Below are positions 5,476 to 54,109 of a stretch of 64,000 bases of DNA, in pieces. Location of the stretch: IMG/VR virus record IMGVR_UViG_3300035162_004754, positions 1 through 64,000 of that record; one strand, given 5' to 3'. The notes under the pieces are model-generated. The model was not told the DNA's origin and made no database searches. It saw only the letters and a list, made by a program, of their open reading frames with translations. This DNA comes from a virus. The first letter of the stretch is position 1. Every line of letters begins with the position of its first letter. Position numbers and translations under genes: made by a program.

Positions 5476-5635
5476 ACCTGGTGGAGTCATATGACCCTCT
5501 TATGAGTTTACGGCATCTCTCAAATGCCGTTGGTGCGGGTGGGTTACTACCGTCCAGTTTCTTGCTCCTGGTCAAAGAGTAAGTGGCGTGCATGGCAAGA
5601 CCGTATGAGGAGAGTTGCATAAACTCTCCTTTTTT
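5476..5635 (+). ncRNA. Candidate structured RNA ahead of the glycan cluster
   Basis: A 160-nt gap without a convincing gene but with strong secondary structure. GACC (5475-5478) can pair with GGTC (5570-5573) to close a domain. A perfect hairpin CGGCAT-CTCTCAA-ATGCCG lies at 5511-5529, and the region ends in the 9-bp terminator at 5608-5635. It could be the 3' end or attenuator of the 4994-5475 operon, or a free small RNA. Cyanobacteria and their phages have a described wcaG RNA motif linked to exopolysaccharide genes, and I cannot test a match by eye. Confidence 0.45.
5608..5635 (+). terminator. Rho-independent terminator with -35 in its loop
   Basis: AGGAGAGTT and AACTCTCCT form a 9-bp stem around GCATA, followed by a T-tract. 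The loop region also supplies TTGCAT, the -35 of the next promoter. Confidence 0.85.
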
Positions 5636-25657: not shown

Positions 25658-25753
25658 AAATAAGTCAGTAAGTCAAGAAACGAACACATTTCTTAACTGT
25701 TCTTAACACCCCGCAAACCAAGACCTCTAGGGTGTCTAAACACGTCTTTCATA

Positions 25754-25776
25754 TCCCAGACTTAGGGTGTCTGGGA
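25754..25776 (+). promoter_or_regulatory. psbA 5' UTR hairpin
   Basis: TCCCAGAC-TTAGGGT-GTCTGGGA, a perfect 8-bp stem in the leader of about 160 nt before the psbA ATG. TAGGGTGTCT occurs twice, once upstream and once across the loop and 3' arm, allowing alternative folding. Conserved PhotoRC RNA motifs are described near photosystem genes of marine cyanobacteria and phages; this may be one. No clear ribosome site precedes the ATG. Confidence 0.6.
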
Positions 25777-25825
25777 AATAGTAACTCCACCATTCCCTGA
25801 TGGTCTTACTTTTTCGTACAAAACA

Positions 25826-27114
25826 ATGGCTACAACTCTTTCAAGACAACAAACCTCTCCGTGGAATGATTTCTGCGAGTGGGTAACATCAACTAACAAT
25901 CGTTTGTATGTTGGTTGGTTCGGTGTATTGATGATCCCAACACTGTTAGCAGCAACTGTCTGCTTCATTGTCGCATTCATCGCAGCACCACCCGTCGATA
26001 TTGACGGTATCCGTGAACCCGTAGCAGGTTCACTCATGTATGGCAACAACATCATTTCTGGTGCAGTTGTCCCAAGTTCAAATGCAATCGGTCTCCACTT
26101 CTACCCCATTTGGGAAGCAGCATCTTTGGATGAGTGGCTTTACAATGGTGGTCCTTTCCAACTGGTAGTCTTCCACTTCCTTATCGGCATCTATGCTTAT
26201 ATGGGACGTGAGTGGGAACTTTCTTACCGTTTAGGTATGCGTCCATGGATCTGTGTTGCCTACTCGGCACCAGTCGCTGCTGCGAGTGCAGTATTCCTCG
26301 TCTATCCTTTCGGTCAAGGTTCTTTCTCTGATGCGATGCCTCTTGGTATTTCTGGTACTTTTAACTACATGCTTGTATTCCAGGCAGAACACAATATCCT
26401 TATGCACCCGTTCCACATGCTCGGTGTTGCTGGGGTATTCGGTGGATCTCTGTTCTCTGCTATGCATGGAAGTCTGGTTACATCTTCACTCGTCCGTGAG
26501 ACGACTGAAACTGAGTCCCAGAACTATGGTTATAAGTTCGGTCAAGAAGAAGAGACCTATAACATCGTCGCAGCCCATGGTTACTTCGGTCGTTTGATCT
26601 TCCAATATGCTTCATTCAACAACTCACGTTCCTTGCACTTCTTCCTTGCTGCATGGCCCGTTGTTGGCATCTGGTTCACCGCACTTGGTGTTTCTACGAT
26701 GGCTTTCAATTTAAATGGTTTCAACTTTAATCAGTCCATCCTTGATGGTCAGGGTCGTGTGCTCAACACATGGGCAGACGTATTGAACCGTGCCGGTCTT
26801 GGAATGGAAGTTATGCATGAGCGTCAAGTTGTGCTTTGCGCTCTTTAAATCGGATGAATTGCTGGAAACCCCAAGTGGGCAATCAGCAGCCAAGTCCTGG
26901 ATACATCCAGGAAAGGTTCAGAGACTACCTGAGGAATACAGTTTCCTTAATAACAGGTTCAAGCGTCCGACACCAGAAATGGTGATGATATAGTCCAATC
27001 CTGATAGCAATATCAGATAGTTAGGGAAAGTTTAAGAATGCACACAACTTCCCTCTTGACCTGGCATCAGCAGAATCTACTCCTGTAGCACTTACTGCTC
27101 CTTCCATCGGTTGA
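25826..27114 (+). CDS. psbA: Photosystem II D1 protein, gene split by a group I intron
   Basis: Exons 25826-26824 and 27037-27114 join as CGT|AAT to give 358 residues, the normal D1 length. Exon 1 has the conserved [48 protein letters not shown] and [20 protein letters not shown] regions. Exon 2 restores [10 protein letters not shown] and the C-terminal processing region. Without splicing the frame ends after [11 protein letters not shown] and loses the manganese-ligand C-terminus (His-Ala-His-Asn-Phe-Pro-Leu-Asp). D1 carries the reaction-centre chlorophylls and turns over quickly in light. Phage copies keep photosynthesis running during infection. Confidence 0.96.
26825..27036 (+). mobile_element. 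Group I intron in psbA (212 nt)
   Basis: The intron starts after a T (GAGCGT|CAAGTT) and ends in G (TTTAAG|AATGCA), the group I rule. GGTTCAGAGACTACC is the conserved R segment and GATGATATAGTCC the conserved S segment, forming the P7 guanosine-binding core. It has no internal gene. A 212-nt psbA intron is known from Synechococcus phage S-PM2, where a free-standing homing endonuclease lies next to it; the same layout is seen here. Confidence 0.93.
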
Positions 27115-47948: not shown

Positions 47949-49850
47949 ATGGCTATCATAGGAGACGTATTTGGATTAACTTCTATTTACGAGAGACAAG
48001 TAGAAAATATTGCAAACGACAACTTTGAGAGTTGGCCGGAGAGTGCTACTTATGGTTACTTTGCTGGTGGTTCTAATCCACCTTCGTCTCCTTCTTATGT
48101 TGCCACAGTAGATCGTATTGATTTCTTGAATGAAACTGCATCACTACCAGGTAATGATTTACCTTCAGGAAGAAAAAGTTTCGGAGAAGTCTCAAGTAGT
48201 TCTTATGGTTACTTTGGTGGAGGTTATGATGGTTCGAACCATATTAATACAATAAACCGTCTTGATTTTTCGAATGAAACTTTTTCGGCACCAGGTAATA
48301 ATTTATCTCAAGTAAGACAGGGTTTAGGAGGAACTCAAAGTAGTTCTTATGGTTACTTTGCTGGTGGATCAGATCCAGCTGTGTCTCCATCTTATGTTGC
48401 CACAGTAGATCGTATTGATTTCTCTAGTGAAACAATGTCAACACCAGGTAATAATTTACCTTCAGGAAGAAAGGATATTGGAACATCTCAAAGCAGTTCT
48501 TATGGTTACTTTGGTGGTGGTTATGATGGTTCGAACCATATTAATACAATAAACCGTCTTGATTTCTCTAGTGAAACTTTTTCGGCACCGGGTAATAATC
48601 TATCTCAAGTAAGACAGGGTTTAGCAGCAACCCAAAGTAGTTCTTATGGTTACTTTGGTGGTGGATCTGATCCAGCTGTGTCTCCATCTTATGTTGCCAC
48701 AGTAGATCGTATTGATTTCTTGAATGAAACTGCATCACTACCAGGTAATAATTTACCTTCAGGAAGAAAGGATATTGGAACAGTCTCAAGTAGTTCTTAT
48801 GGTTACTTTGGTGGAGGTTATGATGGTTCGAACCATATTAATACAATAAACCGTCTTGATTTTTCGAATGAAACTTTTTCGGCACCAGGTAATAATTTAT
48901 CTCAAGTAAGGCAGGGTTTAGGAGGAGTATCCGGAGGAGCATCATACCGAATAAAAGGATCAAGAACTTATGGTTACTTTGGTGGTGGTGATACTGCGCC
49001 TGGAGCACCTGGTAGTGTAGCAACAGTAGACCGTATTGATTTCTCGAATGAGACTACATCGGCACCAGGTAATGATCTAACTCAAGCAAGACGTGCGTCC
49101 GCAGCAACCGAAAGTAGTTTTTATGGATACTTTGGTGGTGGTTTTGCTCCACCTAACGTGGACACAATAGACCGTATTGATTTCTCTAATGAAACTGTAT
49201 CGGCACCAGGTAAGGATCTACCTGTAGCAAACCAGGGTTTAGCAGCAGTCTCAAGTAGTTCTTATGGTTACTTTGGTGGTGGTGCTTCTCCCAGCTCGAC
49301 TGCCGTAGTAAACCGTTTTGATTTCTCTAGTGAAACTTTCTCGGCACCAGGAAATGATCTAACTCAAGCAAGAAATAATTTAGCAGCAGTCTCAAATAGT
49401 TCTTATGGTTACTTTGGTGGTGGTGGTTATCCTGAAAAATCAACAGTAGATCGTATTGATTTCTCGAATGAAACTGTATCGGCACCGGGTAATAATCTAC
49501 CTTCGGGGAGACATGGTTTAGGAGCAGTCTCAGGTAACTCTTATGGTTACTTTGCTGGTGGAGAAAATTATGTCAGTCCATCTACTAGCTATCGTGCTGA
49601 TGTATTTCGTATGGATTTCTCGAATGAAACTTTTGCAGGAATCGTTGCTGCAAATAATTTACCCGTGAAGAAATTTGGTACAGCAGGAACCTCAAGTAAT
49701 TCTTATGGTTACTTTGGTGGTGGTAATGGTCTTCCTTCACCCAGTTATCTTGCCACAGTAGATCGTATTGATTTCACTACTCATATTTGTTCAGCAACAG
49801 GAAATAATCTACCTCAAGCAAGAAGTAGTTTAGCAGCAGTATCAAACTGA
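47949..49850 (+). CDS. 12-repeat propeller-like fibre protein, paralogue 3
   Basis: 633 residues with the same plan of six repeats, GGASYRIKGSRT and six repeats. In the first six, two loop types alternate strictly (SDPAVSPSYV-type with YDGSNHINT-type), which suggests expansion by doubling a two-repeat unit. The second half closely matches paralogue 2. It differs from the other two in the N-terminal segment (FGLTSIYERQVENIANDNFE). It is probably an adhesin component. Confidence 0.85.
   Translation: MAIIGDVFGLTSIYERQVENIANDNFESWPESATYGYFAGGSNPPSSPSYVATVDRIDFLNETASLPGNDLPSGRKSFGEVSSSSYGYFGGGYDGSNHINTINRLDFSNETFSAPGNNLSQVRQGLGGTQSSSYGYFAGGSDPAVSPSYVATVDRIDFSSETMSTPGNNLPSGRKDIGTSQSSSYGYFGGGYDGSNHINTINRLDFSSETFSAPGNNLSQVRQGLAATQSSSYGYFGGGSDPAVSPSYVATVDRIDFLNETASLPGNNLPSGRKDIGTVSSSSYGYFGGGYDGSNHINTINRLDFSNETFSAPGNNLSQVRQGLGGVSGGASYRIKGSRTYGYFGGGDTAPGAPGSVATVDRIDFSNETTSAPGNDLTQARRASAATESSFYGYFGGGFAPPNVDTIDRIDFSNETVSAPGKDLPVANQGLAAVSSSSYGYFGGGASPSSTAVVNRFDFSSETFSAPGNDLTQARNNLAAVSNSSYGYFGGGGYPEKSTVDRIDFSNETVSAPGNNLPSGRHGLGAVSGNSYGYFAGGENYVSPSTSYRADVFRMDFSNETFAGIVAANNLPVKKFGTAGTSSNSYGYFGGGNGLPSPSYLATVDRIDFTTHICSATGNNLPQARSSLAAVSN
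48933..48968 (+). repeat. Conserved interpropeller linker, copy 3
   Basis: Same linker as at 44281 and 46150, with two base differences seen near its end. Confidence 0.83.
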
Positions 49851-53135: not shown

Positions 53136-53495
53136 ATGGCAAATCAATTGGGAGATGCTCCTACTAAAATAGAAGAGGAACAGTCTATGACCTCCTGGAC
53201 ACCATCAGAAAAAGAAAATTCTAAATCCTTATATGGATGTGAAATTCTGATAGAGAATGGAACTTGGGAACAAGTATCCACTAAAGATTGTCCTAATGAT
53301 GCAATGATAATCACTTATGTGGTTGATGGAGAAACGAGATATGATTTGACTCGTAGTCAGAAAGAAGTTCGTATATTTAATATGTATTGGGATAAGTTTC
53401 GTGAGAATTTAAAGGGCATTGGTTTTGGTATGGGAAGAACCAATCCAAAACTATGGGGAATAGAACCACCACCCCCAACCAAAAAGCGGAAATAA
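53136..53495 (+). CDS. Hypothetical protein
   Basis: 119 residues from ATG 53136. It has an acidic N-terminus, a central beta-rich part (LYGCEILIENGTWEQVSTKD), then a helical part and a Pro/Lys-rich tail (PPPPTKKRK). It starts 2 nt after the preceding stop. No family is recognised. Confidence 0.7.
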   Translation: MANQLGDAPTKIEEEQSMTSWTPSEKENSKSLYGCEILIENGTWEQVSTKDCPNDAMIITYVVDGETRYDLTRSQKEVRIFNMYWDKFRENLKGIGFGMGRTNPKLWGIEPPPPTKKRK

Positions 53496-53559
53496 TTCCA
53501 AAATATTGGCAAAAAAAATCCCGGCAATTTTTTGGTCTGTAGGGATTTTCAGAAACCTC

Positions 53560-53588
53560 TTGACTAAATAGGGTATAGGGTCTATAAT
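53560..53588 (+). promoter_or_regulatory. Consensus sigma70 promoter plus late box
   Basis: TTGACT, 17 nt, TATAAT. CTAAATA at 53564-53570 overlaps the -35. The predicted start is immediately ahead of the riboswitch candidate. Confidence 0.82.
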
Positions 53589-53590
53589 GG

Positions 53591-53650
53591 ACCTATCGTT
53601 CATCAGAGGAAACTCTGACGCAAGTAAGTCGCGGAACGGAGCGTTCATCC
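53591..53650 (+). promoter_or_regulatory. Probable glutamine riboswitch (glnA / downstream-peptide type)
   Basis: CGTTC (53597-53601) pairs with GAACG (53634-53638). AGAG-GAAA-CTCT forms an inner hairpin, and GACGCAAGTAAGTCG resembles the conserved core of the glutamine-binding motifs described in marine cyanobacteria and cyanophages. As in the downstream-peptide class, it sits just before a short ORF. A second CGTTCATC (53642-53649) lies by the ribosome region, so the start site could be sequestered by alternative pairing. The family call is from memory of the consensus. Confidence 0.7.
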
Positions 53651-53651
53651 C

Positions 53652-53813
53652 ATGTTTGATATACTACTGTATACCACCCTCACTTGTTCTCAATCTAATG
53701 CAATTATGTTGCGGATGAAACAGAACGAAAATATTCCTCCCGAATATGAGGTGGAATTAATTGAGGTCATGAAGGAATCAAATCCTGATTGTTATTGGGA
53801 CGCAATCGACTGA
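53652..53813 (+). CDS. Riboswitch-linked small peptide
   Basis: 53 residues. MFDILLYTTLTCSQSNAIML is a hydrophobic to amphipathic start, followed by a charged helix and the ending YWDAID. It sits 2 nt after the glutamine-riboswitch-like leader, as the peptides of the downstream-peptide motif do. In cyanobacteria, glutamine-regulated small proteins control nitrogen metabolism. A similar role on host enzymes is plausible but unproven. Confidence 0.75.
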   Translation: MFDILLYTTLTCSQSNAIMLRMKQNENIPPEYEVELIEVMKESNPDCYWDAID

Positions 53814-53883
53814 AGGAACGGGAAAACACGGATCCATCGAAAGATGAGAAGGTTAATTTTCACCCAACTTCAGGAGTAAACAA

Positions 53884-54051
53884 ATGAACACACTTCAAAT
53901 GATTAAAAAGCAGATCAACAAAGCATCTGCACTGCATGACGCACAAGTTCTTCACACCTCATATCGTGGTGTTGAGTATGATACTCGTTGTGTAAAATCA
54001 AACGAAACACACGGTACATTCTGTTATCGTGGTCGTGTCTACAATAAGTGA
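53884..54051 (+). CDS. Small DUF4278-like protein
   Basis: 55 residues. The C-terminal SYRGVEYDTR and YRGRVY segments match the small Tyr-Arg-Gly repeat proteins found in cyanobacteria and their phages (DUF4278). The start has AGGAG 10 nt upstream. Function is unknown. The preceding 70 nt (53814-53883) holds no gene. Confidence 0.78.
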   Translation: MNTLQMIKKQINKASALHDAQVLHTSYRGVEYDTRCVKSNETHGTFCYRGRVYNK

Positions 54052-54072: not shown

Positions 54073-54099
54073 AGGGGGGTTGCAAGACCCTCTTTTTTT
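54073..54099 (+). terminator. Terminator with -35 in its loop
   Basis: GGGGGT and ACCCTC form a 6-bp stem (one G-T) around TGCAAG, followed by seven T. Confidence 0.75.
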
Positions 54100-54109
54100 A
54101 TGCTATAAT
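54080..54109 (+). promoter_or_regulatory. Promoter embedded in terminator
   Basis: TTGCAA (at the terminator loop), 18 nt, TATAAT, 22 nt before the gene at 54131. Confidence 0.6.

Follow-up and report, generated by a model that had tools for sequence, protein, structure and literature searches.

A probable type-1 glutamine aptamer split around a small gene in phage leaders

The window analysed here is a stretch of 64,000 nucleotides (positions 1 to 64,000) of the IMG/VR virus record IMGVR_UViG_3300035162_004754, from a marine cyanophage, and it carries a leader that runs straight into an open reading frame (ORF) of 53 codons. An earlier note on this DNA had proposed that the leader resembles a glutamine riboswitch, that the ORF simply lies downstream of the aptamer, and that this ORF is the regulated gene. 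The locus raises two questions: where does the aptamer end, and which gene does it control?

Layout of the locus

Promoter, riboswitch, a DUF4278-like gene and a terminator follow each other in the window and form a self-contained unit. The features of this unit are:

53560..53588, +: sigma-70-type promoter TTGACT-17-TATAAT (11 of 12 consensus positions matched)
53597-53820: complete aptamer element, probably of the type-1 (glnA, RF01739) glutamine aptamer class, enclosing the 53-codon ORF
53597..53601, +: P1 5' strand CGUUC, partner 53816-53820 (from the RF01739 alignment of the ORF-free relative L199 and the fold; invariant, no covariation)
53603..53618, +: P2 hairpin UCAGAG-GAAA-CUCUGA, strands 53603-53608 and 53613-53618 (65 different P2 sequences, all pairing)
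53619..53626, +: J2/3 CGCAAGUA, conserved core strand of the aptamer
53627..53631, +: P3 5' strand AGUCG, partner 53807-53811 on the far side of the ORF (200 of 200 paired)
53634..53646, +: P4 hairpin GAACG-GAG-CGUUC, strands 53634-53638 and 53642-53646 (in nearly all relatives)
53648..53652, +: P5 5' strand UCCCA, reaching the start codon and covarying with 53796-53800
53652..53813, +: nested 53-aa ORF (phrog_504), with its C-terminus WDAID coded by the aptamer 3' half
53796..53800, +: P5 3' strand UGGGA, within the final codons of the nested ORF
53807..53811, +: P3 3' strand CGACU
53810..53815, +: switch strand CUGAAG (P3 end, stop codon UGA and J3/1 GAAG), partner 53868-53873
53816..53820, +: P1 3' strand GAACG
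53868..53876, +: CUUCAG sequestering strand, pairing part 53868-53873, overlapping the Shine-Dalgarno sequence (SD) AGGAG at 53872-53876
53884..54051, +: 55-aa DUF4278-like gene (phrog_545), the presumed target
54073..54104, +: intrinsic terminator, end of the unit

All sequence elements listed in the earlier note could be found: the promoter, CGTTC at 53597-53601 and GAACG at 53634-53638, AGAG-GAAA-CTCT at 53605-53616 (part of the longer stem TCAGAG/CTCTGA), the core GACGCAAGTAAGTCG at 53617-53631 and the 53-aa ORF. The ORF does follow this leader, with its ATG directly after CGTTCATCCC and not 2 nt later as had been stated. The second CGTTCATC (53642-53649), which had been taken as a hint of a switch mechanism next to the start codon, is also present, and is in fact 5' strand of P4 and P5, which frame the ORF. 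Similar promoters are seen upstream of the 5' arm in most relatives, and transcription is expected to start near 53595, immediately 5' of the aptamer.

Elsewhere in the window, a wcaG RNA (a cyanophage cis-regulatory RNA) was identified at 5502-5597 with 79.3 bits. A group I intron (26815-27017, 88.5 bits) lies ≈1 kb downstream of a PhotoRC-II RNA (25694-25789), and this site is probably in or near a phage photosystem gene. The 633-aa protein encoded at 47949-49850 has repeats around the motif SSSYGYFGGG...RIDFSNET and is likely a repeat-rich fibre or surface protein.

Conservation of the leader and the nested ORF

The 25-nt core of the leader is not a chance occurrence: shuffling the window never reproduced it, and 416 phage records, nearly all from cyanophages, contain it once each. 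Using the peptide alone, and hence without bias toward the RNA, 80 loci were fetched, so the homologues that the earlier note had suggested searching for do exist (phrog_504). The leader core is found in 79 of these loci, and the remaining one is cut by the contig end. Further loci were fetched with the core, giving 203 sites in total. Conservation of the core is overstated by the core-selected loci but not by the peptide-selected set. Moreover, related leaders do not count as independent samples; the switch-strand result described below holds in a tree-based test.

A second conserved block, CGCAAACGACUGAAGGAACG, follows the ORF and overlaps its stop codon in 200 of the 203 sites, the other three being cut by contig ends. 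This block corresponds to the glnA aptamer 3' half (GAAGGAACG) and is present in ≈400 annotated phage records, similar to the count for the core. The nested design occurs in hundreds of cyanophages, e.g., syn9, S-SKS1, and S-SM2. Host loci contain ordinary type-2 elements ahead of DUF4278 genes. The core-2 pattern (up to two mismatches) was seen in 3 of 400 picocyanobacterial-family genomes, fewer than for the reversed control, and a small genus search for the pattern gave no match. An origin of the nested form in the hosts was rejected, as the core-2 matches in these 400 genomes fall below this control.

Substitutions in the nested ORF mainly affect third codon positions, most of them being synonymous, and the ORF therefore very likely codes for a real protein. 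The protein has no Pfam match; it shares a hydrophobic N-terminus and two Cys residues with its relatives in phrog_504. Its C-terminus, DAND* (DAID* in the window), is encoded by the second block. As nested ORFs of unlike appearance all end in DAND*, the second block appears to be conserved as RNA, and the C-terminal DAND of annotated small proteins would then be set by the RNA and not by what the protein does.

Rfam family assignment

Analysis of 53480-53900 with cmscan gave 25 bits for RF01739 (cut-off 35) and 21 bits for the type-2 family RF01704, Downstream-peptide (cut-off 33). No further RF01739 match was found elsewhere in the whole 75-kb record. The covariance-model check proposed in the earlier note thus leaves both glutamine families below threshold in the contiguous window, while relatives exceed the RF01739 cut-off. 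RF01704 reaches 25–30 bits in relatives, which is still under 33. The low score in the window is likely explained by the position of the aptamer 3' half (53807-53820) at or beyond the ORF stop, where a contiguous scan cannot reach it. The natural ORF-free relative L199 scores 46.4 bits for RF01739, and the Rfam alignment of this sequence is assembled from core 1 (5' half) and core 2 (3' half). Simple uninterrupted phage aptamers score 46–52 bits (four scanned, all above the cut-off). The description of the leader as glnA-like has held up in that close relatives pass the cut-off of this family, but it covered only half of the RNA, the 3' half being at or behind the ORF stop.

The three-way junction P1/P2/P3 typical of RF01739 could be recognised: P2 and P3 covary, P1 is complementary yet invariant, and the fold of L199 agrees. 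The family has the conserved strands GACGGAAGUA and GAAGGAACG, and the window has GACGCAAGUA (one base different) and GAAGGAACG. The departure from the consensus is in the J2/3 core, with CGCAAG in the window and CGGAAG in the consensus. Relatives with a UAA stop have AAAG in place of the GAAG strand. We consider it likely, as part of the best explanation of these comparisons, that the window element is a type-1 glutamine aptamer with its 3' half, CGACU-GAAG-GAACG, at or behind the ORF stop.

Covariation and folding of the split aptamer

In the proposed structure helix P3 opens into P4 (GAACG/CGUUC) and P5, and the ORF is found within the P5 loop. This creates an inner three-way junction P3/P4/P5, where P5 clamps the start-codon flank to the last codons of the nested ORF. 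By comparison across ≈200 related sequences, the pairings P2, P3, and P5 could be established. P3 is paired across the ORF in every leader, with the double change AATCG/CGATT in 11 of them. For P5 we counted 27 double-sided changes versus 9.4 in shuffles (0 of 500 shuffles as high), and the signal is far above that of slid versions of the pairing. All five leaders with the arm CACCCC, for example, carry GGGGC opposite and not GGGAC. P4 has a GAG or GAGC loop in relatives and is present in the minimum free energy fold. P1 and P4 are nearly invariant and are supported by complementarity, context, and folding; covariation therefore does not decide which GAACG partners the first CGUUC.

The unconstrained minimum-energy fold of L199 consists of exactly P1, P2, P3, P4, and P5. 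In the window the nested fold P1–P5 has −56.1 kcal/mol, which is 1.4 kcal/mol above the computed minimum. An alternative is that the aptamer comprises 53597-53638 alone, with P1 formed by 53597-53601 and 53634-53638, that it controls the 53-aa ORF, and that the 3' block represents either a second, tandem aptamer or a remnant. This local pairing is possible and is 0.5 kcal/mol worse than the nested fold (−55.6 kcal/mol), the local element is what cmscan reports at 25 and 21 bits, and tandem glnA RNAs have been reported (PMC2864571). We nevertheless regard it as unlikely, since there is no local P3 or GAAG, both of which come from across the ORF with covariation, and since Rfam prefers the joined fold in the ORF-free relative. 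It also leaves the DAND* of unlike ORFs and the covariation of P5 unexplained. Two independent tandem aptamers are likewise a less favoured reading, as the ORF has to be crossed to obtain P3 and GAAG. With the split aptamer, the 53-aa ORF does not simply lie downstream of the riboswitch but would sit inside it.

The inner junction (53632-53646 and 53801-53806; P4, A, P5, CGCAAN, P3) mirrors the outer aptamer junction piece by piece. It has no AGUA and GAAG strands, and it resembles an aptamer copied into P3 of another.

Interchangeable ORFs and hairpins

The 5' arm is absent close to core 1 at 35 sites. A circularly permuted aptamer, made of the downstream arm and core 1, was considered for these phages and dropped once the true arm had been located ahead of another ORF, ≈214 nt upstream. 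Such an arm is located ≈205–240 nt upstream in 34 of the 35 sites, the exception being a cut contig. In nearly all cases it is directly followed by a further small ORF, whose end falls at or in core 1 (gp196 in syn9); one distant-arm site (L116) has no convincing ORF. The start and stop flanks of this P2-nested ORF show 14 double-sided changes versus 5.1 in shuffles. In four loci (L406-L409) P2 holds an ORF and P5 a hairpin, and all four combinations of ORF and hairpin in P2 and P5 occur.

The proteins nested in the P2 loop form a second small-protein family, seen in L083 at 2290-2510 (syn9 gp196) and in about 33 other loci. They have a hydrophobic N-terminus, a GWHMSCER motif and a second Cys near the end, and four of them end in GRK*, coded by the aptamer core itself.

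In other viral contigs ≈64 simple aptamers with a plain P3 hairpin were identified ahead of DUF4278-like genes. By eye, homology to 53884-54051 could be recognised in one group of these genes (MNTLNIIKKQIEKA...YRG...HGTFCYRGR). The loci L278-L397 have simple glnA aptamers directly before small DUF4278-like 'YRG' genes, many starting with MEFPM. In the simple form the ribosome binding site (RBS) is apparently covered by a GGAAA...TTTCC hairpin, an expression platform that differs from that of the nested form. The simplest history starts from a plain glnA switch on a DUF4278-like gene, followed by the inner junction and then by genes in the loops; the reverse order is also conceivable.

Switch strand and DUF4278-like gene

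Six pairs between CUGAAG (53810-53815) and CUUCAG (53868-53873) are kept in all 184 leaders where both strands are readable. Leaders in which the nested gene ends with UAA (CUAAAG) have CUUUAG in 49 of 49 cases, and UGA-stop leaders show C in 106 cases and U, which makes a G-U pair, in 29. When the two traits were followed on a nested-ORF tree, 7.8 of 10 independent supported pairs showed joint change and none an opposite one (median p 0.008). Comparison of the leaders in this way establishes a competing helix CUGAAG/CUUCAG over the RBS of the DUF4278-like gene. As the aptamer needs the same GAAG strand, the aptamer fold and the SD-covering fold are mutually exclusive. The covarying switch strand thus covers the RBS of the next gene, 53884-54051, and not that of the 53-aa ORF, which had been assumed to be the regulated gene.

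This gene matches PF14105 with an E-value of 2.9e-4 and 21.6 bits, which is below the curated cut-off of 25.3, and another gene type in the equivalent position behind the switch reaches 28.0 bits, above this cut-off. Its product weakly resembles the IF17 N-terminal domain. The gene resembles the usual host target of glutamine switches and is the presumed target here. The nitrogen-sensing theme of the earlier note is retained, as DUF4278-like genes are of the kind controlled by glutamine switches in cyanobacteria (PMC6316151). Expression from the host switches is reported to rise with glutamine (PMC6316151), and from this direction and the mutually exclusive folds glutamine is predicted to turn the DUF4278-like gene on.

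The stems around the ORF might instead serve mRNA stability, start-stop coupling or gene-cassette exchange, with glutamine binding lost. Different small ORFs and plain hairpins do fill the same two loops, like an exchange site, and one core base is off consensus (CGCAAG versus CGGAAG). However, simple phage forms with the same CGCAAGUA core reach the 46–52 bits given above for RF01739 and are located ahead of DUF4278-like genes, on which glutamine switches usually act (PMC6316151). A mere clamp would also have no need of a covarying SD-covering strand in competition with the aptamer core, and we give this explanation little probability. A glnA-derived aptamer retuned to another metabolite would fit the one differing J2/3 base and the use of the element by marine phages with hosts lacking such switches (PMC9004378), but it is very improbable given that the remainder of the core is kept and that host elements ahead of DUF4278 genes bind glutamine (PMC6316151).

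Proposed mechanism

The reading that we favour, with good but not full confidence, is a split type-1 glutamine aptamer that encloses a gene and has an SD-covering switch helix for the DUF4278-like gene. GAAG and the last P3 pairs would belong either to the aptamer core or to the SD-covering helix. At low glutamine the SD-covering helix would form and the DUF4278-like protein would be off, while bound glutamine would keep GAAG in the core, leaving AGGAG free and the gene on. In the closed aptamer P4 and P5 may clamp the nested start codon, and the nested protein would be made mainly when the aptamer is open. A ribosome terminating at the nested stop codon, which is within the switching strand, could open either fold, and translation of the nested gene might in this way be a second input to the same switch.

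It is quite possible, though we would stop short of calling it probable, that genes nested in riboswitch arms represent a regulatory design of their own, in which a single glutamine-binding event silences every enclosed gene and activates the one that follows, with translation of the enclosed gene acting back on the aptamer. If true, the aptamer would physically join the start and stop of the enclosed gene, and a single aptamer would govern three genes in syn9-type phages, two of them enclosed and one downstream. A ligand-binding RNA domain could then be split by whole genes and yet be selected as one structure, which would be a compact means of coupling two or three proteins, with opposite signs, to one metabolite. 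Split aptamers would escape contiguous Rfam scans, as is likely the case for the sub-threshold example in the window. The design hints at a way in which phages infecting the most abundant marine phototrophs might sense the nitrogen state of their hosts.

Comparison with known systems

The phage element has much in common with the type-1 glutamine riboswitch (glnA, RF01739), namely P1 CGUUC/GAACG, P2, J2/3 GACGNAAGUA, P3, J3/1 GAAG and the position ahead of a DUF4278-like gene. It differs in that P3 is opened into an inner three-way junction enclosing a complete gene, that P2 encloses another gene in some phage relatives, and that the switch strand includes the stop codon of the enclosed gene. 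With the type-2 riboswitch (Downstream-peptide, RF01704), which occurs in marine picocyanobacteria ahead of DUF4278 genes in host genomes, it shares the CGUUCA arm and the CGCA and GGAACGG segments, but it is without the CAUGGAACGGG segment and the downstream pairing of that type.

Both glnA RNAs and translated ORFs within aptamers have been described before. glnA RNAs were reported in the marine phages S-CREM1 (PMC9964418) and Melnitz (PMC9004378), and the passages on these RNAs present ordinary Rfam hits and describe no nested gene. In the metE B12 riboswitch of Mycobacterium tuberculosis a short translated ORF in the aptamer affects the downstream gene (PMC11260477). That ORF overlaps aptamer sequence in one species, whereas hundreds of phages have whole conserved genes in the loops, and covarying stems pair the start regions of these genes with their stop regions. 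In the control of gifB/IF17 in Synechocystis a glutamine switch acts on a DUF4278 protein and is on with glutamine (PMC6316151); the phage protein, in contrast, has 55 aa and a weak DUF4278 match. In the article texts consulted we provisionally found no paper that places genes within a glutamine aptamer or frames complete genes in aptamer stems, nor, again provisionally, an account of a switch strand made of the stop codon of a nested gene. Glutamine riboswitches of phages are known already, and it is the nesting of genes in the aptamer that provisionally appears to be new.
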